From the NCBI GenBank assembly GCA_024276695.1, contig JAJRWR010000006.1:1-64000 (forward strand): a stretch of 64,000 nt of DNA, read 5' to 3'. Source of the stretch: an archaeon (GTDB lineage Archaea; Thermoproteota; Nitrososphaeria; Nitrososphaerales; Nitrosopumilaceae). Positions 31,725-46,837 of the stretch are shown here, in pieces. The notes under the pieces were generated by a model. It was given only the letters and a program-made list of their open reading frames with translations, ran no database searches and had not been told where the DNA came from. Both the position numbers and the translations under genes were made by a program. How positions within the stretch are numbered: the first letter of the stretch is position 1; every line of letters begins with the position of its first letter.

Positions 31725-31763
31725 TTTCTCACTCTGAATTTTTGTATTTGCTTACAAGTTCTT

Positions 31764-32252
31764 TTATCCATTTGTAATCTTATTTTTATCCAAACCAATC
31801 ATTTCAACTCCTGCCTCTTTTAACAAATCATAGTCTGTTTCTGGATATGTATCAAGACAAACAAATTTTCTAATTCCAATTGTAATTGCCATTTTTGTGC
31901 ATTCTAAGCATGGAACAAATGTTGTGTACAGTATTGCACCTTCAACTCCTGCCTCTATACCTAAAATTGCACAATGCATGATTGCATTAGCTTCTGCATG
32001 ATTACACAGACATCTATCTAATGATGCCCCTGATTCAATCTTACCTTCCATTCTTAATTGACATCTCTTACATCCTCCCTCAAAACAATTTTTGATTCCT
32101 GGAGGTGTTCCATTGTATCCTGTTGCTAATTGTCTGTGATTTCTTACAATTACTGCACCTACTTGCCTTGTCATGCAGTTTGAACGAAGCTTAGCAAGTT
32201 CTGCTTGCAGCATAAAATATTCGTCCCAATTTGGTCTGTCAAAAGAACTCAT
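31764..32252 (-). CDS. dCMP/cytidine deaminase family protein (ComE-like)
   Basis: A 162-residue zinc deaminase. NHAEANAI provides the zinc His and the catalytic Glu; PCLECTK provides the two zinc cysteines. An extra cluster CFEGGCKRCQLRM and the GYNGTPPG segment match dCMP deaminases, which make dUMP for thymidylate synthesis. It stands 39 bases upstream of polB, so a shared role in dNTP supply is a natural inference. Riboflavin-type deaminases are less likely given the insert. Confidence 0.9.
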   Translation of the reverse strand: MSSFDRPNWDEYFMLQAELAKLRSNCMTRQVGAVIVRNHRQLATGYNGTPPGIKNCFEGGCKRCQLRMEGKIESGASLDRCLCNHAEANAIMHCAILGIEAGVEGAILYTTFVPCLECTKMAITIGIRKFVCLDTYPETDYDLLKEAGVEMIGLDKNKITNG

Positions 32253-32366
32253 ACAAACTCTGTTTGACTGCTCAATATATGGATCACGCTAATTCTAAAC
32301 TAAATTGCGATCAGAAAAATTATTCAATTTTTATGATTGATGAATCTTTCCGGGTTTTACATTTTT

Positions 32367-32513
32367 TTAAACATCGATCTTTGTCTTAATTTTCTTTTTC
32401 TTTTTATAGTTTTCTTTCTTTATAGCTAATTCCAAATATAGCGTTTGTAACTCTTCTCTGAGTTTTCTCTCTATCTCCTTTTCTGTAGTTGCTGGTTTTG
32501 ATTTATTAGGCAT
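32367..32513 (-). CDS. 48-residue Lys-rich helical protein
   Basis: A short frame starting MPNKSKPATTEKEIERKL, continuing as a single amphipathic helix (REELQTLYLELAIKKENY) and ending in a strongly basic tail (KKKKKIKTKIDV). The composition suggests binding to nucleic acid or ribosomes. It diverges from the helicase gene. No family recognised; the frame is longer and more regular than chance sequence, but support is modest. Confidence 0.5.
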   Translation of the reverse strand: MPNKSKPATTEKEIERKLREELQTLYLELAIKKENYKKKKKIKTKIDV

Positions 32514-32676
32514 AAATTACTTTGAATGCTCTTCTTTGAGATTTAAAAATTACTTGTATTAAATTTTTGAATATCTTGTGCCTGTTTTTTCAGAATTATT
32601 TGTTGATTATTGAGTGGTGAATAGTTGTTTGTTATACGAAAGCATAAAATCAATAAATTTTATTCTTATATTATAC

Positions 32677-34185
32677 ATGACTGAATTTGTTGAAAAAAAA
32701 TATGTTAAAAATAATTCTATAGAGAAACGAGATTATCAGATAAATCTTGCAAATCAGGCCATTGATGAAAATTGTATTGTTGTTTTACCTACAGGTCTTG
32801 GAAAAACAGCAGTTGCATTACATATAATTGCTGAATATTTATCAAAAGGAACTGGAGGTATTTTGTTTTTAGCACCTACCAGAGTTTTAGTCAATCAACA
32901 TTATGAATTCTTAAAAAATAATCTTACCTTGGATGACATTTCTATGATTACGGGCGAAGACCCCCTCCAAAAAAGAACAAAGTTATGGAATAACAGTGTT
33001 GTTTGTGCAACTCCTGAGATTGCTAGAAATGATCTGAATCGTGAAATTGTCTCCCCGAATCAGTTTAATCTTGTAGTGTTTGATGAAGTTCATAGAACTA
33101 TTGGTGATTATGCATATTCTGGAATTGCTACCTGGTTTGAAAATACTTCTGCTAGAATAGTTGGAATGACCGCTACTTTGCCTAGTGAAAAAGAAAAAGC
33201 AACTGAAATTTTAACAAAACTAAGAATTTCTAGTGTTGCAGAAAGAACTGAAGATAGTCCTGATGTAAAACCATACACTCAAGAAACTAATACAGAATGG
33301 ATTAACGTAGAACTTCCTCCAGAGTTAAAAACAATTCAAACATTATTGAAATCTGCAATAGATGAACGATATGATTTGTTAAGAAAAAATGGGATTCGTT
33401 TAGCAGAACACCAATCCCTTTCAGCACTTCTTCGAATTAGGCAGTTTGTATTGAACCAAAATAGACGTTCTGCAAAACCCTTGTTTACAGCTATTCGAAT
33501 CCATTATGCGCTAAGTATGCTTGAAGCTCATGGAATTACACCGTTTTTAAAATTCTGTGATCGTACTAGGACAAAAAAAGGCGTAGGTGTGAAAGAATTA
33601 TTTGAAGTTGATCCTAATTTCACAAAAGCAATTCAATTGGCAAAAGAAGCACAATCTCATGGGATTGAGCATTCGAAGATTCCAAAACTAAAAGAAATTC
33701 TTGATTCTGTCCCTGGCAAAGCTTTGATTTTTACTAGTTATCGCGATTCAGTCGATTTAATTTTCAATAAATTAACTGAATTGGGAATTAGTGCTGGAAT
33801 TTTAATTGGAAAAGCTGGTGAAACAGGGCTAAAACAAAAAAAACAGATTGAAACTGTACAGAATTTTCGAGATGGTGTCTTTCAAGTATTGGTTGCTACT
33901 CGTGTTGGGGAGGAGGGGTTGGATATTGCTGAAGTGAATCAGGTTATTTTTTATGATAATGTACCTAGTTCTGTTAGATTTATTCAACGACGGGGTAGAA
34001 CTGGAAGAAAAGATACTGGCAAACTCGTAGTTTTAATTGCAAAAAATACTATTGATGAGACCTATTATTGGATTGGAAAACGAAAAATGACTGCATCTAA
34101 ATCTATGGGTAGTAAAATGACTCAGGAATTAGAAAAAAATCAAGAGATTGAATCTAGAAAACAAGGATTAGATGCATTTATCTAA
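32677..34185 (+). CDS. hef: Hef/FANCM-type SF2 helicase without nuclease domain
   Basis: A 502-residue superfamily 2 helicase. Motif I is PTGLGKTAV, motif II DEVH, motif III GMTATLPS, motif VI QRRGRTGR, and the FANCM/Hef-specific helical insert sits between the two RecA domains. Hef remodels stalled forks. The C-terminal ERCC4 nuclease of euryarchaeal Hef is absent, as in crenarchaea and thaumarchaea where XPF is separate. The end KQGLDAFI looks like a degenerate PIP box. The ATG at 32677 (MTEFVEKKY) is preferred; upstream GTG codons lack conserved sequence. Confidence 0.9.
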   Translation: MTEFVEKKYVKNNSIEKRDYQINLANQAIDENCIVVLPTGLGKTAVALHIIAEYLSKGTGGILFLAPTRVLVNQHYEFLKNNLTLDDISMITGEDPLQKRTKLWNNSVVCATPEIARNDLNREIVSPNQFNLVVFDEVHRTIGDYAYSGIATWFENTSARIVGMTATLPSEKEKATEILTKLRISSVAERTEDSPDVKPYTQETNTEWINVELPPELKTIQTLLKSAIDERYDLLRKNGIRLAEHQSLSALLRIRQFVLNQNRRSAKPLFTAIRIHYALSMLEAHGITPFLKFCDRTRTKKGVGVKELFEVDPNFTKAIQLAKEAQSHGIEHSKIPKLKEILDSVPGKALIFTSYRDSVDLIFNKLTELGISAGILIGKAGETGLKQKKQIETVQNFRDGVFQVLVATRVGEEGLDIAEVNQVIFYDNVPSSVRFIQRRGRTGRKDTGKLVVLIAKNTIDETYYWIGKRKMTASKSMGSKMTQELEKNQEIESRKQGLDAFI

Positions 34186-34451
34186 TTTTTATACTGATTA
34201 GATATCTTACCAAGAATTATTTGTTTTCTTTGAATTATTGTATTCTTCATTCCTGATTCCAAATGGTGAACACTGCTTTTTTTAACAACGAGCATGTTCT
34301 CCAACCTCACATCGAACTGATTTTCAAGGAAATTTTCTATTGATGATCTTCCCTCTATCTCTAAATTTTCAAATGCCTCACTTGCTAATTTTTCTATTGA
34401 TTTATCTAAATAATCCAAAATTTCACCCAGCATCTCAATTGTAAATACCAT
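34182..34451 (-). CDS. Hypothetical helical protein, about 89 residues
   Basis: The part from MVFTIEMLGEILDYLDKSI onward reads as charged helices with an NFLENQFDVRLENML segment. The frame stays open upstream to 34577, but that extension overlaps another likely small gene and has poor composition, so the ATG at 34451 is preferred. Its stop overlaps the helicase stop by four bases in convergent orientation. No known family. Confidence 0.5.
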   Translation of the reverse strand: MVFTIEMLGEILDYLDKSIEKLASEAFENLEIEGRSSIENFLENQFDVRLENMLVVKKSSVHHLESGMKNTIIQRKQIILGKISNQYKN

Positions 34452-34587
34452 GATCTCTTCAGATTGGTAACTGCAAAAAATGTTGTGTATTTTATTTTGG
34501 TTTTTTAGGTGTAGAAATTGATAATGTCGTTCTAAACCCTTTTTCATCAACCATAATTTGTTGACAAACCCTGACAAATCAAAAGAA

Positions 34588-34710
34588 ATGAAAGATTTGG
34601 TTCAAAAAGAGAAAAAGCTTCACCATGAAATCCGTGAAGATTATGAAAAAATCAGTCAGAAAATTAATGAGGATTTTGAGAAGGTGAAAAAATCAAAGTT
34701 ATCGAAATAA
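34588..34710 (+). CDS. 40-residue coiled-coil protein
   Basis: The frame reads MKDLVQKEKKLHHEIREDY, then EKISQKINEDFEKVKK and a basic end. It is almost entirely a heptad-like charged helix. A TTG at 34561 would add MTNPDKSKE-type residues and may be the real start. It lies one base before the stop of the parvulin gene (convergent). Function unknown. Confidence 0.45.
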   Translation: MKDLVQKEKKLHHEIREDYEKISQKINEDFEKVKKSKLSK

Positions 34711-34711
34711 C

Positions 34712-34990
34712 CTATGCAAATCTTTTGATTATGTGATATCCGAATTCTGTTTTTATTGGTTCAGAAATTTCTCCAATCTGAAGTTTGAATGCTGCCTCTT
34801 CAAATGGTTTAACCATCATTCCTTTTGTAAAATAGCCTAAACTGCCTTCTTTTTTTCCACTACCTTTGTCTGTTGAAAATTCTTTGGCCAAATTTCCGAA
34901 CTTTTCACCATTTTTGATCTTTTCTAAAATTGCTAGTGATTCACTTTGTTTTTCAACCAGAATGTGTGAACACTTTATTTTGTTGCTCAT
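34712..34990 (-). CDS. Parvulin-type peptidyl-prolyl cis/trans isomerase
   Basis: A 92-residue single-domain parvulin. CSHILVEK at the start, FGNLAKEFSTDKGS, GSLGYFTKGMMVKPFEEAAF and the final GYHIIKRF are the full family signature. It speeds turnover of peptide bonds before proline. Thaumarchaea are among the few archaea with stand-alone parvulins (CsPinA of Cenarchaeum and NmPin of Nitrosopumilus are known examples), which supports the lineage call. No signal peptide is present. Confidence 0.95.
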   Translation of the reverse strand: MSNKIKCSHILVEKQSESLAILEKIKNGEKFGNLAKEFSTDKGSGKKEGSLGYFTKGMMVKPFEEAAFKLQIGEISEPIKTEFGYHIIKRFA

Positions 34991-35080
34991 TTCTGTCTGT
35001 GTTTTGCCTTTGCCTTTATTTGTTTTTAATAATAATTAATAAAGTTCTAGAAATAATTATGTTAATTTTATTTCATAAAT

Positions 35081-35692
35081 TCATTTGTCATAAATTGTCT
35101 GAAGAATTGTACTGTTCTTAATAACCTCTGGTGTGAACTGAACATTAACTGTTACTTTGTTGTTGAAGTCAATATTCACATTATCAAATAATGATTTGTA
35201 TTTGTACACACTTCGTCGATTTTCTGTATATTCGTGCCCTGTTTTTATTAATAATCCTTCCTCAACCAATAAATTAATTTTTCTATATCCTGATGTCTTT
35301 GGAATGTTTAATCTTTCTAAAATTTCTGAAATTGTCCATGGTTCCACAATAGACGCATTCAGAATTTTTGACATTTCATCATCACTAAATGCCTTTAAAA
35401 TTGATTGATTAATCGATGGATTTAGTATTGTAAATCTTTTTTCCATTCTATCCTCTTTTGACTTGATGCTACAAATATTGTCTAGGAATTTTCTCTCCAG
35501 ACCTTTTGCACCATGTCCAAAAAATTCAGTTAAAACCGAATCTAATTTTTCAAATTCTTTTATTGATTGTGTAATGGATATGCCATACTTTTCAAATAAT
35601 CTATTTTGTATGCTGTGAAATGTAGTATCTCCAAGATTTTTTCGAATTATTTGTTCAAGGGCCGCTGTAAATAATTGATCAAACTCAGTCAT
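35081..35692 (-). CDS. Winged-helix regulator paired with a response regulator
   Basis: A 203-residue protein. The N-terminal half (FDQLFTAALEQIIRK, then LTEFFGHGAKGLER) is a conserved thaumarchaeal module of unknown role. Residues about 110-170 are a winged helix (EPWTISEILERLNIPKTSGYRKINLLVEEGLL), ending in a strand like that of the regulator at 15688. Its start overlaps the stop of the receiver gene by four bases, so the two are likely translated together and act as a split two-component output pair. Confidence 0.75.
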   Translation of the reverse strand: MTEFDQLFTAALEQIIRKNLGDTTFHSIQNRLFEKYGISITQSIKEFEKLDSVLTEFFGHGAKGLERKFLDNICSIKSKEDRMEKRFTILNPSINQSILKAFSDDEMSKILNASIVEPWTISEILERLNIPKTSGYRKINLLVEEGLLIKTGHEYTENRRSVYKYKSLFDNVNIDFNNKVTVNVQFTPEVIKNSTILQTIYDK

Positions 35693-36288
35693 GTAGTTAT
35701 CATCTCCGATAAATCACGAATTTTTCCAGTGTCGTTTTGTATTGCCAAGTCAAGTGCTTCTTGCATTTCTTTTTCTGATTTGATGCTTTTATTGTCACTA
35801 TTTACTATTTTACATTCTTGTATGATGTCTAATTCTTTGAAATTCCTATATTGATCATAGTTTACAAGGCATAAATAATAATCAGGATCATCTTTGAATT
35901 TGATTTCAAATGATGCAGGCATTGAATTTTCATTTTCAGAAATATCTGAAATGGTTTGCTTTAATACATTAGTCCCAAAGGGTTTTGATATTACAGGTAT
36001 GTTTAACAATTCAAAAAGATCCATTTCATAATCATTTGAATTTGCTGTAACTACAATTATTTTGGCGTTTTGATTCTTGTCTTTGATATTTTCTACCGCA
36101 TACAGTCCATCATAGTTTGGCATTGCCAAGTCTGTAAAAACAATATCTGGGGTATGTTTTTCATACAACTCTACAGCATCTTTGCCATTATTTCCTGTGG
36201 CCAGAACATCTATTTTGAGCATATCTAGAAAATCACAAAACATATCTAAAATATTTTGATCATCATCTATCACAATACAATTGAACAT
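35689..36288 (-). CDS. Response regulator with receiver domain and unknown C-terminal domain
   Basis: A protein of about 199 residues. The receiver domain has acidic pair DDD (near residue 8-10), phosphoacceptor Asp in VFTDLAMPNYD, a switch residue in VVTANS, and Lys in ISKPFG. The C-terminal 75 residues (EIKFKDDPDYYLCLVNYDQY, then a helical tail) are not a known DNA-binding fold. The partner winged-helix protein (35081-35692) probably supplies DNA binding. No histidine kinase is nearby. The ATG at 36288 (MFNCIVIDDD) is preferred over one five codons upstream. Confidence 0.85.
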   Translation of the reverse strand: MFNCIVIDDDQNILDMFCDFLDMLKIDVLATGNNGKDAVELYEKHTPDIVFTDLAMPNYDGLYAVENIKDKNQNAKIIVVTANSNDYEMDLFELLNIPVISKPFGTNVLKQTISDISENENSMPASFEIKFKDDPDYYLCLVNYDQYRNFKELDIIQECKIVNSDNKSIKSEKEMQEALDLAIQNDTGKIRDLSEMITT

Positions 36289-36365
36289 ATTTGTACTTCT
36301 CATTCCTCATCTTTAGTCATATTTTCATACTTTATATGATTATCTTATATTTATGAATCCCATTT

Positions 36366-36644
36366 TTGGGAATTCATAAAAATGTATGTCTGCTTGTTGA
36401 ATTACATTTTGATAAATGCCATAACATAATAGAATGTCTATTGAAATACCAATTTGATGAAAATCCCTTCGTACAATCTGAGATGTCTCTATCGATAAAA
36501 GAGATTACTCAATGTCCAAAATGTCTTTCAAATAATGTTCTTTGTTGATTTCATATAAAGTCATTACAATCAAGTGTTGTCACTGATGTTCAAAACTGGA
36601 TTAAAGATTGTAAAATGATTCATAAAAATGATGATTTAAAATAA
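36366..36644 (+). pseudogene. Small Cys-motif protein interrupted by an in-frame TGA
   Basis: One frame runs from 36366 to a TAA at 36642-36644, interrupted only by TGA at 36546-36548. Before the stop it reads MSLSIKEITQCPKCLSNNVL (from ATG 36483); after it, SSVVTDVQNWIKDCKMIH. Both sides look coding, and the CPKC plus later Cys suggest a zinc-ribbon protein of a kind frequent in thaumarchaea. The first 39 codons, from TTG 36366, may or may not belong. A single base change would restore the frame. Confidence 0.5.
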
Positions 36645-36753
36645 TTTTATATCGTTATTTGTTGATTTTTGATCGAGATTTTTAATTTTAAATCTTAAAG
36701 TTTATTCAAATGGGCAAACTTGTTCTTATCAATTCTGGTACGTTTCATATAGT

Positions 36754-37119
36754 GTGAAGATTCTTCATATTGAAGATACCCCTGAAATAAGTAGAATATT
36801 TGCAGATATCTTGTCTAACAAAAATTATGATTTTGATAGCATCTTGGATGGTAGGGCTGGATTAGAGTTGGCAGTTTACAAAGAATATGATTTGATTTTA
36901 CTTGATATGTGCATGCCAGAATATAATGTGGTTAACTTTCTTTTGGATCTGAAATCTAGGAAACCTTCAGAATTATCTAAAGTTGTTATTGTTAGTGGCC
37001 TTTCTATGAGTCCTATTCAAGAACAAGAATTATTGAAATTGGGAATTCGTTCTGTTTTAAGAAAACCTATTTCTGTTCAGACACTACTTTCTCAAATTGA
37101 ACAGAAAATTACTATTTAA
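36754..37119 (+). CDS. Stand-alone receiver domain (CheY-like)
   Basis: A 121-residue receiver. Acidic residues in HIEDTPE, phosphoacceptor Asp in LLDMCMPE near residue 51, Ser in VIVSGLS and Lys in LRKPIS are all present. There is no output domain, so it must signal by protein contact. The start is GTG at 36754. Together with the receiver at 35689-36288 it makes two receivers and no kinase within this window, so the donor must be encoded elsewhere. Confidence 0.88.
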   Translation: MKILHIEDTPEISRIFADILSNKNYDFDSILDGRAGLELAVYKEYDLILLDMCMPEYNVVNFLLDLKSRKPSELSKVVIVSGLSMSPIQEQELLKLGIRSVLRKPISVQTLLSQIEQKITI

Positions 37120-37129
37120 TTTAGACCAA

Positions 37130-37423
37130 CTAATTTCTGTATTGAACATTATCTTCAAAAAAGGTGGATTCTTTCTTTCCAGAGTTCTTTTCTAACCCCT
37201 TGAAACTTTTTGTGAAAAACATCGTATATTTTGAAATTCTTCTCCGTTTTCAACAATTTTTACTTTACCTTGAATACATTACGCATCATGTTCACCTAAT
37301 TTGCAAATGTCCATCACAATTCCAACATTGAGATTGAATTTAATGTTGGCATATGTTGTTCTTGTCAGGCGTTACAATTCTTGCCTCTTCTAATATGTTT
37401 AGAAACTCTATTCTGATTAAATT
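37130..37423 (-). pseudogene. Degraded pyridoxamine-oxidase-like (PPOX/FMN-binding) gene
   Basis: Pieces of one protein can be read on the minus strand only by changing frame at least three times: FLNILEEARIVTPDKNN; then FNLNVGIVMDICKLGEHDA, a TAA, IQGKVKIVENGEEF; then KIYDVFHKKFQGVRKELWKE; then ESTFFEDNVQYRN and a stop at 37130-37132. The order and the 'GKVKIVENGEEF' strand suggest a flavin-nucleotide-binding PPOX-type barrel, inferred without a search. With three frameshifts and a nonsense codon it is a true pseudogene. Confidence 0.75.
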
Positions 37424-37426
37424 CTA

Positions 37427-37705
37427 TCAATTAAAAATTCGTTCTCTTATCTCTGGAATATGTTTGTATACTATGTCTCTGACTTTGATTTGATCTTCTG
37501 CCGTTGGCATTTCTTTTTGTGCACTAAGAATTGCACCACTCATTCCAAGTGCCATGCCCATGACAATTCCATAAACAAACTCTTTGGGGTCTTCCACCTT
37601 TAGTATTTCTTTATTCTGATTAATTTCTTCTAGATATGCTGGAATCGTTGCAACAGCCCCATTAATGGTTTGCAGAATTATTGATTCTAATTGTTCTTCA
37701 CTCAT
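37427..37705 (-). CDS. Conserved-looking small helical protein, unknown function
   Basis: A 92-residue protein: an acidic helical N-terminus (SEEQLESIILQTINGAVATI), a Gly/Met-rich hydrophobic middle (YGIVMGMALGMSGAILSA) that could be a buried helix or short membrane segment, and a basic C-terminal helix ending PEIRERIF. The frame is intact although its downstream neighbour is a pseudogene. No family recognised. Confidence 0.6.
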   Translation of the reverse strand: MSEEQLESIILQTINGAVATIPAYLEEINQNKEILKVEDPKEFVYGIVMGMALGMSGAILSAQKEMPTAEDQIKVRDIVYKHIPEIRERIFN

Positions 37706-37776
37706 GATTTTATTTTAAAATATTTCTTAATAAATTTGCACCTAAGATTTTTAATCTCTGCTTCTAAGGAGTGTAC

Positions 37777-38178
37777 ATGTTCTCTTTTTTTACCCCAAAT
37801 GAGGCAAACGATGCTTTGCCTGATGTCATAAAAAAATTTGAGTATGCTTTAGCAAAAAATAACGAAGTTAAGAAAATAGAGCGTGAATTACAGATGAGTA
37901 TATCGACTACGAATTCTTTTGAATCTTATGTGAATCTTAAACAACATCTAAACTCCGCAATTACAAAATTTTATGAATCTGTTGAAATATTGGAAAATAC
38001 AGGCGTTGTTGTCAAAAGTATCGAGCAAGGTCTGTTGGATTTCCCTTCAAAACGATTTGAAGAAGAAGTTTGGCTATGCTGGAAGTATGGTGAAATTGAA
38101 ATCAAATTTTGGCATGAAAAAGACTCTGGTTTTATGGGACGAAAACCCATCGAAGTTACAGATGATTCACTGGTTTAA
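37777..38178 (+). CDS. DUF2203 family protein
   Basis: A 133-residue protein matching DUF2203: FFTPNEANDALPDV at the start, a long helical hairpin, then IEQGLLDFPSK, EEVWLCWKYGE and a final FWHEKDSGFMGRKPI. Function is unknown, though the family is widespread in bacteria and archaea. AAGGAG at 37766-37771 is placed five bases before the ATG at 37777 and decides the start over the GTG at 37771. Its end overlaps by 12 bases a small minus-strand gene. Confidence 0.85.
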   Translation: MFSFFTPNEANDALPDVIKKFEYALAKNNEVKKIERELQMSISTTNSFESYVNLKQHLNSAITKFYESVEILENTGVVVKSIEQGLLDFPSKRFEEEVWLCWKYGEIEIKFWHEKDSGFMGRKPIEVTDDSLV

Positions 38179-38298
38179 TAATTTAATTTCGTGATTGACT
38201 CTTAGATCATTCCAAGATTCTGCCAAATGATGACAAAATTCATCCCTGCATTTTGTAGAATATCCGCAACTACATCTACTCAATGAAAATCTCCTCAT
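38167..38298 (-). CDS. 43-residue Cys/His-rich protein
   Basis: The frame reads MRRFSLSRCSCGYSTKCRDE, then FCHHLAESWNDL and ends KLLNQ. Four Cys and two His in 20 residues form a likely zinc site. Its ATG lies 23 bases inside the end of the regulator fragment upstream (38276-38520), the overlap expected if the two were once an operon. It is intact although its upstream partner is truncated. Confidence 0.55.
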   Translation of the reverse strand: MRRFSLSRCSCGYSTKCRDEFCHHLAESWNDLRVNHEIKLLNQ

Positions 38299-38520
38299 CT
38301 AATTTTGTTCTTGACCAGAGGTTGTTAAACAACAATGCTTTGGAATAGATAATTGTTTCAGAATTTGTCCATATCGCTCTCATCTCTTTATTGTTTCCTT
38401 CATTTTTAATAAAAAATAACACTTCATCATCGTCCTTGATTAGAAAACACAAGTTCTCTTTTACTGATGAACATAGTTTTTTGATTTTTGTTTTATCTAT
38501 GTCATCAAAAATTCCCTTTG
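38276..38520 (-). pseudogene. C-terminal fragment of a thaumarchaeal sensor/regulator
   Basis: A minus-strand frame without its beginning: KKSKGIFDDIDKTKIKKLC, then ENLCFLIKDDDEVLFFIKNE, then RAIWTNSETIIYSKALLF and NNLWSR before TAG at 38276-38278. The 'AIWTN...LF..LW' ending is typical of a family of thaumarchaeal signal-output or HTH proteins, recognised only loosely. Upstream, the frame runs directly into the TadC remnant at about 38520, so its N-terminal part has been lost at a junction. Confidence 0.6.
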
Positions 38521-39595
38521 ATTTTTTAGTTCTGGAGTTAATGCCCCCAAGTTTCTGTCCCCGGCCTGCTCTATGGCTTTGATCAAATTGGCCCCACTTT
38601 GAACTGAACTTAATAATGCAAGCAAAAACACTGGCAAATTCCTATCTATGCTATCTTTTCTTTGAATTTCTTTTAATTGATGGATGGTTAATGGAATTAT
38701 TCCTACTAGAATCCCAAAGATTAATCCTACATCTCTAATGGTTGTAGAATTTGAAAATTCTGAAAAATAAAAATTCATTGAGAGAACAGTTACTGATGCA
38801 ATTAATGAAAATGTTAATGTCTTTAGAATCTCATTTTTTAGAATTGATTGTTTTGGTTCTACTTTCATTCCTACTTTCTTCTTTTGTTTTCTTTCAACTC
38901 TTTCCATTTCGCTTATCTCTTTGGCACCATGTGTCCATCATCACCAACATTAACACGCCACTAAGTGGAATTACTGCAAAAGTTAGAATGTTCATCAGTG
39001 TTAACAAGTCAAATCCTGCAAGACTTGGATTCATTATTCCCATAATTGACAACATAATTACTGCAAGTAATGGAAAAACAATTAGTAAAATTGTATAAAT
39101 TTCTGCAACACTCTCTAATGACTCAGTAGTTTTTTGCATTAGCATTTTCTTTTCTTCAAGTTGAACTTTTGCCGTTGTATTGAAGTATTCTTTAAGATCT
39201 CCTCCTGATTGAACTGTGACAATTGCTCCTTCAAGTAATTCTGAATATGGTCCTGCAGGTGTTCTATGAATTAAATCTTTGATGGCACTAATCAAATCCA
39301 TGCCTAGAATATCGATATTTCTCACGATAAATCTTGAATCTTTGACAATATCTTCATCAGTGTATTCTTTTGCAATTGCCTTGAAAATCCCCTCTAATGT
39401 CAAACCACTAGTTGCCAATGTTGACATGTATCCGATAAAGTGAGGAATTTCTTCAATGAGTTTTGCTGCTCTGTTTTTTACTTTAATTGTTGGAATCATC
39501 TGTAATATACCAAAAGTCATTCCAAACAGCATTAATCCACTTAATACTGGAAGTAACATTCCTACACTTGCAGTAAAATCAAAAATCACTTCATC
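38521..39595 (-). pseudogene. TadC/FlaJ-type (GspF) membrane assembly protein, truncated and frameshifted
   Basis: The minus strand holds the first GspF domain (IPHFIGYMSTLATSGLTLEG, RTPAGPYSELLEGAIVTVQS, GGDLKEYF) and helices up to VMMDT, then changes frame around 38894-38930 to ERVERKQKKKVGMKVE, more helices and the start of a second GspF domain (LPVFLLALLSSVQSGANL), which stops dead at about 38520. The family is the inner-membrane platform of archaeal type IV pili or archaella. Both ends are missing and at least one indel lies inside, so it is a decayed gene. No pilus ATPase remains nearby. Confidence 0.78.
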
Positions 39596-40214
39596 TGTAG
39601 ATGATGTTGTACAAATTATTGACGATGCTATAATTCCTACTGGTTCATCATATGCTTCATTCCCAATTAAAACAACGGGTATTGTTGGTGATCCAATTAT
39701 CGCTGTAAGTGCTAAAGGTGTTAATGGAACTTCAACTTTGATTACTGCAGCCTCCTCTCAAACCTAATTATAAATATTCACTGGTGGGCTTGCAGATGAA
39801 ATTAAAGCCAATGAGCCTTTTGAATTTAAATTATTTGTAGATGATGAAAATACTGATTCTGTTTCTGGTGCTTCATTAAAAATCATCACTGGTGATAATG
39901 CAATAATAACTCCTGAAGTAGTTAGGACAAGTTCTGATGGTAGTACAGTTGTTAGTTTAACTGCATATGAGGGACCACATATCTCATTTGATATTATTGC
40001 AACAGCTGAAGGTTATGCTGAAGGGCAAGATTCTTTCACGGTAAATGTTGATGCTCCTAACAAAGTATTTGACTCGATTGATTTGGAATTACCTGAATGG
40101 ATTATCTATATTATAATTGGAGGAATATTGATGGTATGTGTAATAGTATTCATGTTCTTGAGAAAATCTAAAACTACTTTAGAAGAAGAATGGGAAGAGG
40201 AAGACGAACTTTAA
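39596..40214 (+). pseudogene. Ig-like extracellular protein with C-terminal membrane helix, truncated, two stops
   Basis: The plus strand reads DDAIIPTGSSYASFPIKTTG, further beta-rich sequence, then TAA-TTA-TAA (39765-39773), and continues in the same frame with FTGGLADEIKANEPFEFKLF, repeated Ig/big-like strands, a membrane helix (WIIYIIIGGILMVCVIVFMF) and an acidic tail ending DEL. Two C-to-T changes (CAA to TAA) explain both stops. The N-terminus is missing: it meets the 5' end of the TadC remnant head to head near 39590. This was probably a surface protein. Confidence 0.75.
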
Positions 40215-40423
40215 TTCTTAGTTCGTTTTTTATCTCTACAAATTCCACAAAGATAATTTTTCATAAATTCTTCTAATTCCACTTTGAATTTATCAGTTTT
40301 AGAAAATTTTTCTCCTGTTTTTAGTCCTCTCGGAACCTGTTTGCCACAATTTATGCAATGAATATCTGCCTCAAATTCAATTTTTTTATCATTTTCTGAA
40401 ATTTTCCCTATGATCACATTCAA
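40211..40423 (-). CDS. 70-residue zinc-ribbon protein
   Basis: The protein has CINCGKQVPRG in the middle and CGICRDKK near the end, two Cys-x-x-Cys pairs about 35 residues apart that should hold one zinc. Between them is a charged helix (KTDKFKVELEEFMKNY). The stop overlaps that of the convergent Ig-like remnant. It diverges from the prenyltransferase gene. Unknown function. Confidence 0.65.
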   Translation of the reverse strand: MNVIIGKISENDKKIEFEADIHCINCGKQVPRGLKTGEKFSKTDKFKVELEEFMKNYLCGICRDKKRTKN

Positions 40424-40500
40424 TTTTTATTTCATTTAGATATAAACAAGTCTCATTCATAAACTCATGAATATTATACTGAAAAATTAATGATATCGAT

Positions 40501-41385
40501 ATGCTATCTGTATGGTTTCGTGTTATACGTGTACGATTCCTATTAGCCTCAGTCATTGCAGTTTCCGTAGGTCTATCGTTAAATTGGTGGCAAAATTCTT
40601 CCTTGGATGTATTTGATGCAGTTTTGACTTTTGCAGGTATACTGGCACTTCATGCAAGTGTTGATTTGCTAAATGATTTTTGGGATTTTAAACGAGGTAT
40701 TGATACTAAAACAACAAGAACAAAAATGAGCGGTGGTACTGGTGTATTGCCTGAAGGATTGCTCAAACCTTCTTCTGTTTATCGTGCAGGAATTACATTT
40801 TTAATTATTGGTACTGTAATTGGAGGATACTTTGTAATTACTGATGGAATTACTATAGCAATAATTTTGGGATTTGCAATTGCATCTATCTATTTCTATT
40901 CTACTAAAATTGTTGATTCTGGATTAGGGGAATTCTTTGTTGCTGTAAAGGGTTCTATGATTGTAATTGGTACTTTTTTCATTCAGTCCGGTCAAATATC
41001 TGTTGAATCAATTCTTGCTGGAATTGTTGTGGGGACTCTCTCTTCCTTGGTACTTTTTATCGCATCATTTCCTGATCATGATGCAGACAAATCTAAAGGT
41101 AGAAAAACTTTGGTGATTGTGGTTGGTAAACAAAAAGGGGCAAAATTATTCTGGATTTTTCCTCTGATATCTTATTTGGCAATAATCATTGGAGTCTCTG
41201 CAAATCTATTCCCTGTGCTATCTTTGATTAGTTTTCTTAGCTTTCCATTAATGATAAAATCTGGTCTTGGTTTGCAGAAAAATTATAATCCGATTGATCA
41301 TCTTGTCCCATACATGTCTTCAACTTTGATGTTTGGCAGGCTTACTGGCATTTTATTTATACTTGGATTTTTAATTCCAATATGA
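40501..41385 (+). CDS. UbiA-family prenyltransferase (MenA-like)
   Basis: A 294-residue membrane enzyme with about eight helices. The first Asp-rich motif is NDFWDFKRGIDT and the second is FPDHDADKSKGRKT, which bind Mg2+ and the prenyl diphosphate. The layout is closest to 1,4-dihydroxy-2-naphthoate prenyltransferase (MenA). The product could be a quinone or another prenylated aromatic; without neighbouring men genes the acceptor is uncertain. The next gene starts 38 bases later in the same direction. Confidence 0.87.
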   Translation: MLSVWFRVIRVRFLLASVIAVSVGLSLNWWQNSSLDVFDAVLTFAGILALHASVDLLNDFWDFKRGIDTKTTRTKMSGGTGVLPEGLLKPSSVYRAGITFLIIGTVIGGYFVITDGITIAIILGFAIASIYFYSTKIVDSGLGEFFVAVKGSMIVIGTFFIQSGQISVESILAGIVVGTLSSLVLFIASFPDHDADKSKGRKTLVIVVGKQKGAKLFWIFPLISYLAIIIGVSANLFPVLSLISFLSFPLMIKSGLGLQKNYNPIDHLVPYMSSTLMFGRLTGILFILGFLIPI

Positions 41386-41423
41386 TGCTTTAGACATAAA
41401 TTTAGTAATTAATCCCAAAGAAT

Positions 41424-42524
41424 ATGATTTCAGGATGTGCTAGCTCTGAAGGTACTCAAAAATTCACTGAAAATTCAGGCATAAATCCAATGAATTTTAA
41501 CCATTTTGAAAGGCTTCATCTATCAAATGTTGGTGTTGGAACATATCTGGGAGATGCTGATGCCAAAACTGATGAATTAGTTACAAGTGCAGTAAAACAA
41601 TCCATCTTGTCTGGAGTCAATGTAATAGATACTGCAATCAATTATCGTTCTCAAAAGGCTGAGCGCTCAGTTGGAAAGGCAATATCTGAATTGATTAACG
41701 ATGAAAAAATTACTCGTGATCAAATTTTCCTGAGTTCAAAAAATGGCTATGTTACAAATGATGCTGATGTAAATTTGGGTTTTTGGGAGTATGTTAAAGA
41801 AGAATATTCTCAAAAAGGCGTAATCAAAGAAGGCGATGTGACCTCAGGATATCACTGCATGACTATTGCATATCTTTCAGATCAATTAGATAGGAGCCTG
41901 AAAAATTTGAATGTCGAATGTATTGATTTGATGTATCTTCACAATGCTGTTGAAGGTCAAATTAAAGATGTATCAAAAGAAAAATTTCTAGAAAATTTAA
42001 AATCTGTTTTTGAATTATATGAACAAAAAAGAAAAGAAGGAAAAATTAAATTTTATGGTCTGGCCACTTGGGAATGTTTCAGAGTTCCACCTGGCAATCT
42101 TCAATACCTTTCACTAGAGGATACTGTTAACATGGCAAAAGAAGTTGGTGGAAAAAATCATGGTTTTAGATTTATTCAATTGCCATATAACATGAATTAT
42201 GATCAGGCTTTACTTATAAAAAATCAGTTACTTGGAACCGAATCTGTATCAATTTTAGACGCAGCGGTAAGATTGGGAATTGGTATTTTCACTAGCGTTC
42301 CTTTCATGCAAGGTAGATTGTTAACCTCTGGAACAATACCTGAATTTAATGAATTAAAACCATCACTTCGTGCCTTACAATTCATCCGTTCATCTCCCGG
42401 TGTACTTGCACCTTTGGTTGGTCAGAAATCTTCGGAACATGTGTCTGAAAATCTTGAAATTATGAATATTGCTCCAATGTCCGAAGATGAATTTCTTACA
42501 TTGGTAAAGAAACTGACTTTATAG
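41424..42524 (+). CDS. Aldo/keto reductase family protein
   Basis: A 366-residue TIM-barrel oxidoreductase. Catalytic tetrad positions are seen as DTAINY (Asp, Tyr), SSKNGY (Lys) and MYLHN (His). It carries inserts compared with typical 300-residue members, for example the segment with DVTSGYHCMTIAYLSDQLD. It likely uses NADPH to reduce a carbonyl; the substrate is unknown. It follows the prenyltransferase, but a shared pathway is only a guess. Confidence 0.88.
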   Translation: MISGCASSEGTQKFTENSGINPMNFNHFERLHLSNVGVGTYLGDADAKTDELVTSAVKQSILSGVNVIDTAINYRSQKAERSVGKAISELINDEKITRDQIFLSSKNGYVTNDADVNLGFWEYVKEEYSQKGVIKEGDVTSGYHCMTIAYLSDQLDRSLKNLNVECIDLMYLHNAVEGQIKDVSKEKFLENLKSVFELYEQKRKEGKIKFYGLATWECFRVPPGNLQYLSLEDTVNMAKEVGGKNHGFRFIQLPYNMNYDQALLIKNQLLGTESVSILDAAVRLGIGIFTSVPFMQGRLLTSGTIPEFNELKPSLRALQFIRSSPGVLAPLVGQKSSEHVSENLEIMNIAPMSEDEFLTLVKKLTL

Positions 42525-42581
42525 ATATTTCAATCATCAGCCTCAAAATTATGTATAAAGATAATAAATGAGTGAATTTTA

Positions 42582-42962
42582 GTGACACATAGTAATTTGT
42601 CCGCTAAAATTTATGATTACACGAAAATCTGTAATTCGATATTTACAATTGATCCTAAAATTCGATTCGCAGGCGTCATCAATGAACGTGGTCGTTTAGT
42701 TGCAGGTGGAATGAAAGAAAATGTTGAACCGTTAGAAAGCGAAAAAGATGATGAAATGATTTTCATGGAACTTGCGTTACGTGTTAAAATGAGAAAAGAG
42801 TTTGATAAACAACTTGGACCTGTTATTTTTGCAATGGCTTCTCGTGAACGTGCACTAGCAATTAGTGTGATAATTAATAATGATATTCTATATGTTGCAT
42901 CAGAACCTGATACTGATTATTGTACATTACCAAAAAAAATCCTTAAAATAATCCAATCGTAA
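42582..42962 (+). CDS. DUF6659-like thaumarchaeal sensor-type protein
   Basis: A 126-residue protein. YTKICNSIFTIDPKIRFAGV and INERGRLVAGGMKE are the opening of a profilin/roadblock-like fold repeatedly seen in thaumarchaea (DUF6659 as I recall it), followed by ELALRVKMRKEFDKQLG and a hydrophobic strand pair. Probably a cytoplasmic sensor or scaffold, not proven. Start GTG at 42582. Confidence 0.7.
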   Translation: MTHSNLSAKIYDYTKICNSIFTIDPKIRFAGVINERGRLVAGGMKENVEPLESEKDDEMIFMELALRVKMRKEFDKQLGPVIFAMASRERALAISVIINNDILYVASEPDTDYCTLPKKILKIIQS

Positions 42963-43031
42963 GTATATTTCATTTCCACTTTTGGGACATTATGATCTTC
43001 TTAATTAAATATAAAATTACAAATTCTTTAC

Positions 43032-43226
43032 ATGCAATTTAGTGAAAAACTTGAATCTGACTGTTTGGCCATGTCTGAGTTGACAAAAGAAATTGGCTCT
43101 ATCGTACAAAATTCATTTAATCAAGGGAGGGGTGATTTAACCTCATCTGATATTGAACATATTTTAAAAATCACCTCTGATGTTACATGTAAAATAAAAT
43201 CACAAACTTGGGAATTGACAGTATGA
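43032..43226 (+). CDS. 64-residue helical protein, unknown
   Basis: A short, mainly helical frame (MQFSEKLESDCLAMSELTKE, then SDIEHILKITSDVTCKIK). Its stop overlaps the ATG of the next gene (ATGA at 43223-43226), which indicates an operon and supports both frames. No motif recognised. Confidence 0.55.
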   Translation: MQFSEKLESDCLAMSELTKEIGSIVQNSFNQGRGDLTSSDIEHILKITSDVTCKIKSQTWELTV

Positions 43227-43462
43227 ATAATTGTAATGAACAACACTCTCTAATGTACAAAATAACCTACAAATCAACTGTCCTTAACAGTACTACCAAT
43301 GAATGGTTAGTTTGTGAGAAATGTTTTGGAAAAGAAGAATTTTTTGGCAAATCTGGAGAAATCGAATCAATCACATCTTTACGTAATTTAAGTAAGATTA
43401 GACTGGAACTTGATCATCCCACACTGACTGAAATTATCCCAGAAACTCAAAAAATTTTGTAA
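43223..43462 (+). CDS. 79-residue zinc-ribbon-like protein
   Basis: From ATG 43223 the frame reads MNNCNEQHSLMYKITY and later WLVCEKCFGKEEFF. Cys4, His8 and the CEKC pair make a probable zinc site; the remaining half is helical. Translationally coupled to the preceding 64-residue gene. A longer TTG start at 43208 is possible. Function unknown. Confidence 0.6.
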   Translation: MNNCNEQHSLMYKITYKSTVLNSTTNEWLVCEKCFGKEEFFGKSGEIESITSLRNLSKIRLELDHPTLTEIIPETQKIL

Positions 43463-43491
43463 TTATTTGATATGTTTTCTCTAGCTTAATC

Positions 43492-43499
43492 TATAAATA
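43492..43499 (+). promoter_or_regulatory. TATA box of the YHS-domain gene
   Basis: TATAAATA is centred about 26 nt upstream of the GTG at 43521, which supports that start and a leaderless transcript. Confidence 0.6.
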
Positions 43500-43520
43500 G
43501 AAATTAAATGTTGGAAATCT

Positions 43521-43664
43521 GTGCCAGTAGATCCTGTATGTGGAATTGAACTTGATGAAGACTTAGCATTAATTCATGATCATAATGGAAAGAACTTCTA
43601 TTTTTGTTGTAATGGCTGTAGAAGAATTTTCATCAAAAAACCACGCAAGTACAAAAACAACTAA
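43521..43664 (+). CDS. YHS-domain metal-binding protein
   Basis: A 47-residue YHS domain: MPVDPVCGIELDED, then FYFCCNGCRRIF and a basic end. The Cys in VCG and the FCCNGC cluster are the family's usual metal ligands, as found next to copper ATPases and phenol hydroxylases. Copper or another soft metal is a likely ligand; a copper role would suit an ammonia oxidiser, but this is inference. The stop overlaps the convergent asparagine-synthase-like gene by four bases. Confidence 0.8.
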   Translation: MPVDPVCGIELDEDLALIHDHNGKNFYFCCNGCRRIFIKKPRKYKNN

Positions 43665-44608
43665 AGAGGAAAAGCCCCACACATTCTACAAAATTTTGAT
43701 TTTCCTATATTGTGTTTACAATAGGGGCATTTTTCATCCAATTTGGAATCTTTTGGAGTTCCAAACAATTTCTTAAAAATCTCATAATAATGCATTGATT
43801 CTCTGCTTCTAATTCTTACCCCATCCATTTTTTCAACTGTTAGTTTTTTCTCAACAAATTGTTCTTCTCCTATGATTGAATCAAACAAATTTGTCAATCC
43901 TACAGTACCTGATCCGTCTTGCATTGGGGATTTTTCTCTCCATGCAATTTGAGGTGGAATATGTTTTTCAAATGTTTTACGTAAAATCCACTTTCCATAT
44001 CTCTTTTCATTTTCATTTCTTACTTTGAGGTTTATTGGTATTTTCTCAGATAGATTCATCACTTTTTCATTTAGAAAAGGTGATTCTATGGTAACTCCTA
44101 ACGCATCCCCTATCTTTTGTGTGGGAAAATGCATGACCGAACAAATTCTTTTGATTTCTCTTGTTAATTCTTCTTCTGACTTGTTTATGAGGAAACTATA
44201 CCCTGCAAATAATTCGTCAGCTCCATCACCTGTAATAATTGACTTTTCTCCGTTTTCCTTTGCCCATTTTATTGCTAAATACATTACAACATTATTGCGA
44301 ATTTCAATATCGTTAAAGTTTTTTAAAATTTTTATGGTCTTTTCTATTGCTTCTAAAATTTCAGCTATTTTTACATTGTAAATTGTCAATGACAATTCCA
44401 TTTCTTTTGAAATCATTTGGCAATATGTTAAATCTGTTGAAACAAAATCCTCTGCAATCACTGCAATAGTTTTTGGTTTTCTCTGTTTTAGAAAATATGC
44501 TATAATAGAACTATCCAATCCGCCCGACAATGAAATTAAATTTGATGTGCATTCGTTACATGCTTCTTTTAAAACCCTGTATAGTTTTTGAGAAAATTCT
44601 TCCAACAT
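43661..44608 (-). CDS. Asparagine-synthase-like ATP-pyrophosphatase with zinc-ribbon tail
   Basis: A 315-residue protein with only the synthetase half of class B asparagine synthase: SGGLDSS at residues 28-34, IITGDGADELFAGY, and ESPFLNEKVM. The glutaminase (Ntn) domain is absent, so it should take free ammonia or another amine. The last 30 residues add a zinc ribbon (CPYCKHNIGKSKFCRMCG) not found in AsnB. It may make asparagine, or adenylate and amidate another target such as a protein or tRNA. Confidence 0.85.
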   Translation of the reverse strand: MLEEFSQKLYRVLKEACNECTSNLISLSGGLDSSIIAYFLKQRKPKTIAVIAEDFVSTDLTYCQMISKEMELSLTIYNVKIAEILEAIEKTIKILKNFNDIEIRNNVVMYLAIKWAKENGEKSIITGDGADELFAGYSFLINKSEEELTREIKRICSVMHFPTQKIGDALGVTIESPFLNEKVMNLSEKIPINLKVRNENEKRYGKWILRKTFEKHIPPQIAWREKSPMQDGSGTVGLTNLFDSIIGEEQFVEKKLTVEKMDGVRIRSRESMHYYEIFKKLFGTPKDSKLDEKCPYCKHNIGKSKFCRMCGAFPL

Positions 44609-44714
44609 CTCTTACATATTTTTGAAATTAAAATAGATATGCCTAATGAAGTAGAGCATAATCCAAAAAATCTCATTGCAAACTTTAAATTCTTTATCAA
44701 ATTCTTGAGGATTA

Positions 44715-45131
44715 ATGCTACTTCCTGCTGAAATAGAATCTAAAACTCTGATTCCTGCATTACGAGCAATTCTTGCTAAAAAACTTGCAGAAGATCATAA
44801 TATTAGAGAAGATGAAATTTCTAAAATGCTTGGAGTAACACAAGCTGCAATTAGTAATTACATTCGTGGAACAAGAGGGGATCCATCATTAATTGCAAAA
44901 CTTTTAGCAGAAAAACAAGTTGCAACAATGATTGATGAATTAAGTGACAGTCTTTCTTCTGATATGGCATACACTCCATCAAGTCTATCTAAATTTATCG
45001 GACTTTGTAATTATATTAAATCAAGTCTATTAATTTGCGAGATACATCATAATTTAGAATCTAACATTGATGAACAAGTTTGTAAAGAATGTGAAAATAT
45101 GCTTCTCAAAGGTCCTGGAAGCGTTTACTAG
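44715..45131 (+). CDS. XRE/COG2522-type HTH regulator with Cys/His cluster
   Basis: A 138-residue protein. Residues 30-65 are a helix-turn-helix (REDEISKMLGVTQAAISNYI, then RGTRG). The C-terminus has CEIHHNL and CKECENML, which could bind zinc or an Fe-S cluster. This layout matches COG2522-like archaeal regulators that in some species are fused to the ThiN thiamine-phosphate synthase. The stop overlaps the Alba stop by four bases. Confidence 0.78.
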   Translation: MLLPAEIESKTLIPALRAILAKKLAEDHNIREDEISKMLGVTQAAISNYIRGTRGDPSLIAKLLAEKQVATMIDELSDSLSSDMAYTPSSLSKFIGLCNYIKSSLLICEIHHNLESNIDEQVCKECENMLLKGPGSVY

Positions 45132-45439
45132 TTTTTAACTAAAATAATTTCTACAGTTGATGTCATATTTCCAATGCCCGCAGCAGCTACTGTATCTAAA
45201 GTAATTTTTTCAACTTTGGAATTACCATTAAGCATTTTTTCTGTAATGATATTTGCTATTGCCACTGCATTAGGAATTGAATTACCCTTTGCTTTTAGAA
45301 TAACTTTACTTTTATTCCCTAAAATTGATAATACTTCAAGAGCTGATTCCATTACAGGATAGTTTCCAATTTGTATCGTAGCTTCAGACTTTTCGGTCTG
45401 CTCTTGACCAAGCGGTTCAGTTGTCTCTTCCATGAGCAT
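45128..45439 (-). CDS. albA: Alba DNA/RNA-binding chromatin protein
   Basis: A 103-residue Alba. The acidic N-terminal extension (about 20 residues) precedes the Alba core: VMESALEVLSILG, KAKGNSIPNAVAIANII, and the ending MTSTVEIILVK. The usual acetylatable Lys pair near the N-terminus of the core is not obvious (IQIGNYPVM replaces the common VLIGKKPVM), which may change how it binds DNA. It coats DNA or RNA as a dimer. Confidence 0.9.
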   Translation of the reverse strand: MLMEETTEPLGQEQTEKSEATIQIGNYPVMESALEVLSILGNKSKVILKAKGNSIPNAVAIANIITEKMLNGNSKVEKITLDTVAAAGIGNMTSTVEIILVKN

Positions 45440-45490
45440 TATTCAATATTTAGAAATTTTATGTTCTTTTAAGTTTTATCGACCATTGAT

Positions 45491-45985
45491 TCATTTTTCA
45501 AAGTAATCAATTGGTATATTTTGATAATCGCCATTTGGCAGTACTCTTCTAATTGTAATTGGAATCACTCTTTGTTCCAACTCTTCCATTGAAATGTCTA
45601 ATGAAATTCTGGCAGTTTTTGGAATTGGAATGAAAGGCGGTGCACCTAATGATAACTGTAATGCTCTTGCTCCCATAATTCTTGCTTTTTCAAATCTTGT
45701 TAATGTTGGTGGTCCAATGGTGATTTTATTTTTTTCACAAGGAATTTCTACTGGGTCGTGTTCTTCAATTTTTTCAACAACCTCTCTATTTTCAATTTCT
45801 TTAATTCTTTTTTCTAAACTATCTTGTTCTTTTTCAGTAAGTGGTTCTACAAGATCTTTTCTATCGATTAATTTTCGATAAGTATCTAATGCTTTGTTTA
45901 ATCCTGCATTTTCTTCGACCTCTGCATCCAGTTCCTCTTCAACTGGTGAAGCTTCAACCAATTCAGGTTCTTTAACATTAGCCAA
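45491..45985 (-). CDS. rpo6: RNA polymerase subunit Rpo6 (RpoK) with acidic N-terminal extension
   Basis: A protein of about 164 residues. The C-terminal 85 residues are the Rpb6 fold: IGPPTLTRFEKARIMGARAL, then QLSLGAPPFI and ISLDISMEELEQRVIPI. The N-terminal 75 residues are acidic (EPELVEASPVEEELDAEVEE), like the tail of eukaryotic Rpb6 and longer than in most archaea. It fixes the clamp of RNA polymerase. The start is taken as TTG at 45985 (LANVKEPE), 26.5 bases from the centre of a palindromic TATA box. The ATG at 46024 would put the TATA inside the gene. Confidence 0.9.
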   Translation of the reverse strand: MANVKEPELVEASPVEEELDAEVEENAGLNKALDTYRKLIDRKDLVEPLTEKEQDSLEKRIKEIENREVVEKIEEHDPVEIPCEKNKITIGPPTLTRFEKARIMGARALQLSLGAPPFIPIPKTARISLDISMEELEQRVIPITIRRVLPNGDYQNIPIDYFEK

Positions 45986-46007
45986 GTACGAGAATTTTCT
46001 TAAAACG

Positions 46008-46015
46008 TTATATAA
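46008..46015. promoter_or_regulatory. Palindromic TATA box shared by two divergent genes
   Basis: TTATATAA at 46008-46015 is perfectly palindromic. Its centre (46011.5) is exactly 26.5 bases from the TTG of the plus-strand cyclophilin-like gene (46038) and 26.5 bases from the TTG of rpo6 on the minus strand (45985). This is the expected TATA-to-start distance for leaderless transcripts in both directions. Confidence 0.6.
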
Positions 46016-46037
46016 TCTAATCATTTTAAAGTACGAA

Positions 46038-46424
46038 TTGAATACATCATCAGTCTCGAGAAAGCATCTGATTTTAGAAATTCGAGGAAAAGCAAAAATC
46101 TCTTGTGATCTAAAACGTCATTTGTCTCCCCGAACTGTTGGGACTATTATGAGATCTTTGCCTTTAGAAGGACATGCTCATTTGTTAGGCAAAAGCATTT
46201 CATATTTTGAAACAAGTGTTGATTCTGGAATTGAAAGATCAAGAACTGAATTCAAAAAAGGTGATGTCACATTTTTACCCTCTACTGGGAGTATCTGTTT
46301 TTTTCTAAATGATGCTGTATTTGCTAAAACAATGACTCCAATTGGAAAACTAATTGGTGATATTGATGCATTAAATGATGTTAAATCTGGCGATGTGTTT
46401 TGTATCTATGAAGATACTGCTTGA
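46038..46424 (+). CDS. Cyclophilin-like fold protein (TM1367/DUF3830-like)
   Basis: A 128-residue beta-barrel protein: HLILEIRGKAKISCDLKRH, SPRTVGTIMRSLPLEGHAHL, then FKKGDVTFLPSTGSICFF and MTPIGKLIGDI. This matches small cyclophilin-like proteins without proof of isomerase activity. The start is TTG at 46038, based on the shared TATA element and the position of the first conserved strand. Its end overlaps the eS25 gene by 19 bases (convergent). Confidence 0.8.
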   Translation: MNTSSVSRKHLILEIRGKAKISCDLKRHLSPRTVGTIMRSLPLEGHAHLLGKSISYFETSVDSGIERSRTEFKKGDVTFLPSTGSICFFLNDAVFAKTMTPIGKLIGDIDALNDVKSGDVFCIYEDTA

Positions 46425-46714
46425 TAAAGGTGATGACCTGAATAACCCCCAACTCTTTTTACAATTCCTTTGTTTGTGGATTCTTTTAGAAATGCATTTA
46501 CTGCAGAAATTTTAACTCCTGTCTGTCTTGCAAGATCTTGAACTGTGACAACTTTGGAGTTTTGAATAATTTTTAATGCTTGCTGCTCATTTACTATGAC
46601 TGTGATCTCTGCTTTCTTTGGTTCGCCTTCACCTTTGTCTTTCTTTTTCTTTGTGTCTTTGGAACCTGTAGATTTATCTTTGTTAGCAGTCGTTGGTTTC
46701 TTTGCCCCACCCAT
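46406..46714 (-). CDS. rps25e: Ribosomal protein eS25
   Basis: A 102-residue protein of the small ribosomal subunit, found in eukaryotes and in some archaea such as thaumarchaea. A Lys-rich, disordered N-terminus (residues 1-35) leads to a winged helix: VVTVQDLARQTGVKISAVNA, then FLKESTNKGIVKRV and a C-terminal YSGHHLYQ. No bacterial counterpart exists, supporting the archaeal call. It converges with the cyclophilin-like gene. Confidence 0.92.
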   Translation of the reverse strand: MGGAKKPTTANKDKSTGSKDTKKKKDKGEGEPKKAEITVIVNEQQALKIIQNSKVVTVQDLARQTGVKISAVNAFLKESTNKGIVKRVGGYSGHHLYQAVSS

Positions 46715-46808
46715 AATTTAAGAAAAAAATATTCCTCTTATAAACGATGAACCATTTTTTTAATTATTTGACTGTAAATTATTTGAAAATTTGAAAACTA
46801 TTTTCAAG

Positions 46809-46816
46809 TATAAATA
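46809..46816 (+). promoter_or_regulatory. TATA box of the 70-residue zinc protein gene
   Basis: TATAAATA centred about 26 nt before the ATG at 46838; fits a leaderless promoter. Confidence 0.6.
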
Positions 46817-46837
46817 ACATCTTGTGCACTATTTTGT

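Follow-up and report, generated by a model that had tools for sequence, protein, structure and literature searches.

A probable recent deletion scar of an archaeal type IV pilus locus in a Nitrosopumilaceae genome, and differently cut scars at the same site in relatives

Main finding

We analysed a 64,000-nucleotide stretch of DNA from a Nitrosopumilus-type ammonia-oxidizing archaeon (hereafter the window), which lies on contig C35 of a 41-contig draft genome that is 99.5% complete. Very probably, two collinear deletions recently destroyed an archaeal type IV pilus locus here, and the window carries the resulting scar. That a pilus/surface-protein system had been deleted was strongly supported. 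In addition, sequence comparison suggested that this pilus locus has been lost repeatedly in Nitrosopumilus/Nitrosarchaeum, with many relatives carrying their own differently cut leftovers.

Results

Four gene remnants between conserved flanks

To characterize the block at 38276-40214, we translated it in six frames and compared it with 95 genomes of the same genus. Four gene remnants were found. The first was the 3' remnant of a TrmB-family regulator (38276..38530, minus strand; residues 199-278 of 280; 86% identity by tblastn), the N-terminal DNA-binding domain of which was deleted; PF01978 (TrmB) was present in the intact copy of relative G032. It was followed on the minus strand by the 5' remnant of TadC2 (38515..38907; residues 1-131 of 305; 85% identity) and the 3' remnant of TadC1 (38918..39571; residues 89-306 of 307; 91% identity), both GspF/FlaJ-like. 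PF00482 was found in the intact copy of TadC2 and, at 55 bits, in the TadC1 remnant of the window. The last was the 3' remnant of an Ig-like membrane-anchored surface protein on the plus strand (39573..40214; residues ~691-908; 75% identity), which is 908 residues long when intact in G032. Because the protein-level identity to intact genes was 75-91% and the blocks had the same order and orientation in the intact relatives that carry TrmB1, the remnants could not be attributed to chance.

The original prediction had described a TadC-like remnant (minus) and an Ig-like remnant (plus), both lacking their 5' ends, meeting near 39590. These were recovered, and the meeting point was placed at ~39572. 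It had further proposed three fragments joined by two junctions; both junctions stood, and the number of fragments rose to four, as the TadC remnant consisted of TadC1 and TadC2. Since the two TadC pieces are tandem neighbour genes, some of what looked like a frame change is simply the place where one gene ends and the next begins. The predicted decay was likewise observed: two CAA-to-TAA changes created stops at 39765-39767 and 39771-39773 in the surface-protein remnant, and a 1-nt deletion at ~38931 shifted the frame of the TadC1 3' end. The block showed the features of pseudogenes and a deletion scar: genes were truncated, inactivating lesions were present, and relatives had intact orthologues at this site. 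Annotation of the window should not present the truncated TadC and surface-protein reading frames as a functional pilus.

The site was bracketed on the left by a DUF2203 gene (37771..38178, plus strand; PF09969, E=5.8e-37), which was kept at intact, scarred and empty pilus sites in the 95-genome scan. On the right lay a gene for a small Cys-rich protein, 'ZnF80' (40211..40423, minus strand; conserved, and without a match in Pfam), which converges on the surface-protein remnant, followed by a prenyltransferase-like gene, presumably UbiA (40501..41385, plus strand), which served as a synteny anchor and tree marker. tRNA-associated integration was considered and rejected, with zero tRNA genes in 30000-48000.

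The intact locus in relatives

At exactly the site of the scar, intact relatives of the genus had a type IV pilus locus of 14-20 kb. Its order was a TrmB-like regulator, a variable module, TadC2, TadC1, a FlaI/GspE-type ATPase, a TackOD1 protein, four small pilin-like/secreted genes and the Ig-like surface protein. The variable module contained an EamA transporter, RHH-like, wHTH and membrane genes, and sometimes SET, HEAT and a second TrmB; gene calling in G032 found all seven between the TrmB-like regulator and TadC2. The names EamA, RHH, SET and HEAT were assigned by reading the sequences rather than by family scan. A winged-helix protein at 35081-35692 of the window, ~40% identical to the wHTH gene of this module, is a paralogue still present 2.6 kb from the scar.

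The VirB11/FlaI-type assembly ATPase was present in the ancestral-type locus (in G032: PF00437, E=2e-42; PDB 2oap, E=1.5e-110; FlaI 4ii7, 8.7e-79) and absent from the scar in the window. Both TadC1 and TadC2 contained the PF00482 domain of GspF/TadC/FlaJ platform proteins. Among the four pilin-like genes of G032, only pilA4 scored above the TIGR02537 cut-off for the archaeal class III signal/pilin N-terminal domain; pilA1 and pilA2 had no Pfam match and pilA3 no NCBIfam match, and these three were assigned from position and N-terminal pattern only. The intact surface protein gave weak Big_1/CarboxypepD_reg/SpaA matches below cut-off. An archaellum locus was not supported at the equivalog level, with FlaI scoring 410.6 bits and FlaJ 71 bits against cut-offs of 550.

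In intact relatives, the DNA of the window scar appeared as three blocks on one contig, spaced ~6.5-7 kb and ~9-10 kb apart; in G007, for example, they lay at 662410-662679, 669224-670294 and 679397-680053, all plus. Nine relatives were fetched with their surroundings and showed synteny on both sides. The left part of the locus varied: G031, G052, G072, G081 and G094 were intact but lacked the TrmB1 module here.

Two loci of this set were unusual in themselves. In G055 (L035-L036), the locus was present with 12 unusual changes at otherwise invariant columns of TadC1, and pilA2 and EamA were apparently broken, so that early decay is possible. The complete genome of G052 (L043) had the full locus, but a frameshift near residue 140 interrupted its ATPase reading frame; this may mark the beginning of loss or reflect a sequencing error.

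Two junctions account for the missing DNA

The abrupt end of the TadC block that had been predicted at the start of a regulator tail was verified: the block stopped at 38520-38527, where the regulator C-terminus began. At this junction (D1, 38520..38527), ~6.5 kb was missing, and an exact 8-bp sequence, GATTTTTT, occurred at both deletion ends in G064, that is, at both ancestral breakpoints, and was kept once in the window. At the second junction (D2, 39571..39574), ~9.2 kb was missing, with ~1 bp of exact shared base inside ~14 bp of imperfect similarity. Of the short repeats that the original prediction had suggested looking for at both junctions, one was present at D1, and at D2 the homology was minimal or imperfect. 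Relative to G064, the nearest intact genome (87% identical across the TadC block), D1 removed 6531 bp and D2 removed 9185 bp, a sum of 15716 bp. The flank-to-flank distance was 17765 in G064 and 2048 in the window, a difference of 15717 bp. The agreement within 1 bp indicated that the two junctions explain the whole 15.7 kb shortfall relative to G064.

To evaluate junction homology, we simulated 290 random joins of real intact-locus points and aligned them in the same way as the natural scars. The median overlap between left and right alignments was 8 for 19 scar junctions and -2 for the 290 simulated ones (Mann-Whitney p = 1e-7); overlap measured by alignment overstates exact homology and serves as a comparison only. 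The overlap value of 23 at D1 was reached by none of the 290 simulated junctions. Junction homology above that of random joins points to short-repeat deletion. The mechanism of D2 is less certain because its exact homology is almost nil. Across the 95 genomes scanned, neither junction was shared by any relative, nor did any relative carry the same fusion as intact genes, an observation that the original prediction had named as counter-evidence.

From these results, we propose that D1 fused the tail of TrmB to the start of TadC2 and that D2 fused the truncated TadC1 to the tail of the surface protein. Illegitimate recombination at short direct repeats would have produced both deletions, recently and only in the lineage of the window. 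The cells would have been left without this pilus, while a diverged second pilus ATPase gene stays.

Age of the loss and remaining pilus-like genes

The dN/dS of the TadC1 remnant relative to G064 was 0.042, and that of intact pairs was 0.029-0.054. The surface-protein tail gave a raised value of 0.17, compared with 0.09-0.13 for intact pairs. Apart from one 1-nt deletion and two stops, the remnants still look purifying-selected, suggesting that the loss was recent, because prolonged neutral evolution would have left many more amino-acid replacements. A lesion common to the sister genomes was considered and rejected: the scars G033a, G033b and G037 are without the TadC block still present in the window, and each keeps parts lost from another. 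The breakpoints alone would still accommodate a small common first lesion inside the ATPase/pilin segment of the window and its sisters; the lack of a clear excess of amino-acid change in the TadC1 remnant argues for a recent private loss.

Translocation of the deleted genes within the genome was also rejected. The ATPase and the four pilin-like genes are missing from the window, and the 9.2-kb D2 segment with the ATPase/pilin genes and TackOD1 had no match elsewhere in the 41-contig draft, although an empty answer of this kind is weak evidence. Just one further pilus ATPase of the same genome gave a long match, a diverged type IV pilus-type paralogue on contig C2 (G000 C2:1-7000; L045, L048), 35-36% identical and cut by the contig end. 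Contig C2 also encodes a second GspF-like protein of 642 residues. The cell has probably lost this pilus, not all pilus-like genes.

Recurrent scars and empty sites in the genus

The ATPase was found at an identity of at least 85% in 20 of the 95 genomes of the genus. In the other genomes, where the site was visible, it was empty (in many of them), scarred or occupied by other genes. Gap analysis and maps revealed ~16 scars with different contents and breakpoints in Nitrosopumilus/Nitrosarchaeum; these are distinct scars, and the underlying events may be fewer, as the close-relative pairs G051/G038 and G069/G020 could each share a first lesion. The window retained the TrmB1 tail, TadC2, TadC1 and the surface protein from residue 691 on. 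Other scars joined EamA 329 to surface 572 (G033a), TrmB2 244 to surface 768 (G033b), TrmB1 120 to surface 829 (G037) and TrmB2 40 to surface ~829 (G044). Further scars were found in G085, G013, L106 and L128 (an ATPase fragment), and in G069, G020, G051, G038, G062 and G009 (several pieces). In the sister genus, Nitrosarchaeum sp. BD3 (L157) retained a regulator tail and the surface protein from residue 656 on. The site of G061 was empty, with a 29-bp gap.

The metagenome-assembled genome (MAG) NIOZ-UU107 (G033) had two contigs over the same region, C79 and C61 (L089, L090; coverage 30.6 and 36.4 for G033a and G033b according to the contig titles), with two different scars. Neither is derivable from the other, and the two represent strain-level polymorphism of loss.

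Unrelated genes were also seen at the site. In G054 (C1:1567000-1595000; L169-L170), ~25 kb of other genes lay between the flanks, including a Cas1 protein (PF01867, E=4e-59), a serpin and a GMC oxidoreductase. Smaller unrelated inserts, named by eye, encoded cation-efflux-like and Met-rich proteins (L118:6090-9720) and methyltransferase-like and Cys-rich proteins (L145:7220-9710). These small inserts suggest that the site is generally variable.

Alternative explanations

We considered whether selection by viruses, acting on top of the deletion mechanism, drives the losses: the pilus would serve as an infection route, and pilus-free mutants would be selected repeatedly. Different short-repeat deletions would then be selected in different cells within populations, and some lineages may regain the locus by recombination in the flanks. 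The many differently cut scars and the two different scars within NIOZ-UU107 are consistent with this proposal. A precedent is virus-challenged Sulfolobus islandicus, in which convergent 2-14 kb deletions of pilin genes conferred broad resistance (Rowland et al. 2019, PMC7217056), and this precedent makes virus selection a concrete hypothesis. However, open-ocean streamlining or loss of surface life predicts the same pattern; we regard planktonic streamlining as an equally possible cause. Repeated, possibly virus-driven selection for loss is a tentative suggestion that we consider rather unlikely. If true, the pilus would be an on/off surface trait of the genus.

The opposite history, in which an empty site is ancestral, the locus spreads horizontally as a cassette and was acquired many times at this site, and the scars are failed gains, appears improbable. 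In a prenyltransferase+AKR tree, presence and absence of the locus required at least 16 changes. The window grouped with G033a, G033b and G037 (support 95), adjoining intact G064 (99), so its closest kin have different scars. The trees of pilus genes and flank genes conflicted significantly, and the AU test rejected the topology of each for the other, indicating that some transfer or recombination has occurred; strictly vertical inheritance was rejected on this basis. Other cargo in some genomes also fits a cassette. However, intact loci in the sister genus Nitrosarchaeum occupied this site too, with the prenyltransferase gene alongside, which makes loss the better reading. Moreover, both trees shared clades, such as Nitrosarchaeum apart, G034+G072, G031/G052/G094/G081 and G007+G002, and graded remnants can arise from loss only. 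Given the conflict between the trees, recombination or regain also happens besides loss.

It is very unlikely that the junctions are an assembly or amplification chimera present in no cell. The genome is a draft of 41 contigs and both junctions lie within 1.1 kb, but the remnants bear independent stops and a frameshift, and analogous scars occurred in independently assembled genomes, including single-contig G013 and G062. In addition, overlaps of 8 bp or ~1 bp are too short for ordinary assembler joins.

Lastly, the original prediction had invoked deletion plus inversion; deletion was borne out, with 15.7 kb accounted for, whereas inversion was refuted. The remnants do sit head-to-head without their N-termini, but in intact relatives the minus-strand TadC2/TadC1 pair is already placed between a minus-strand regulator and the plus-strand surface gene, every intact locus examined had the same relative orientation, and blastn of the window against nine intact regions found no inverted block with the remnants. 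The comparison of alignment and gene order with intact relatives that had been proposed as a check thus defined the deleted segments and identified the head-to-head geometry as the ancestral arrangement.

Discussion

The scar in the window is a real and recent deletion of an ordinary mechanism, and its value lies in the recurrent pattern. That type IV pili are patchily distributed among ammonia-oxidizing archaea was already known; here, the loss resolves into separate events that can be roughly dated, and our literature searches found no paper on these scars. The ~16 scars at this single site, some of them from very closely related genomes, provide natural pilus-plus/pilus-minus comparisons in an ecologically major group. 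The function of the pilus and the selection against it (viruses, cost, planktonic life) become directly testable.

In bacterial and archaeal genome reduction, illegitimate deletion between short repeats is followed by pseudogene decay. The scars described here resemble this process in their excess junction homology, truncated remnants, and later stops and frameshifts. Unlike general genome reduction, the losses cluster recurrently in a single surface-structure locus, flanked by two genes that are kept.

The available parts of two published surveys describe pilus diversity and a patchy distribution with losses in ammonia-oxidizing archaea, and report that N. maritimus SCM1 lacks secretion ATPases (Abby et al. 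2020, PMC7554672; Makarova et al. 2016, PMC4858521). The locus studied here shares with the archaeal type IV pili in those parts a FlaI/GspE2-type ATPase, tandem TadC/FlaJ-like proteins and a pilin with an archaeal class III signal region. Whereas those parts treat presence and absence, the present analysis resolved base-level scars, junction homology, timing and recurrence at one fixed site. As in Sulfolobus islandicus, kilobase-scale chromosomal deletions removed type IV pilin genes (PMC7217056). That case involved laboratory selection, a known virus and a resistance phenotype, whereas the present losses were found in natural genomes and took the whole assembly machinery.
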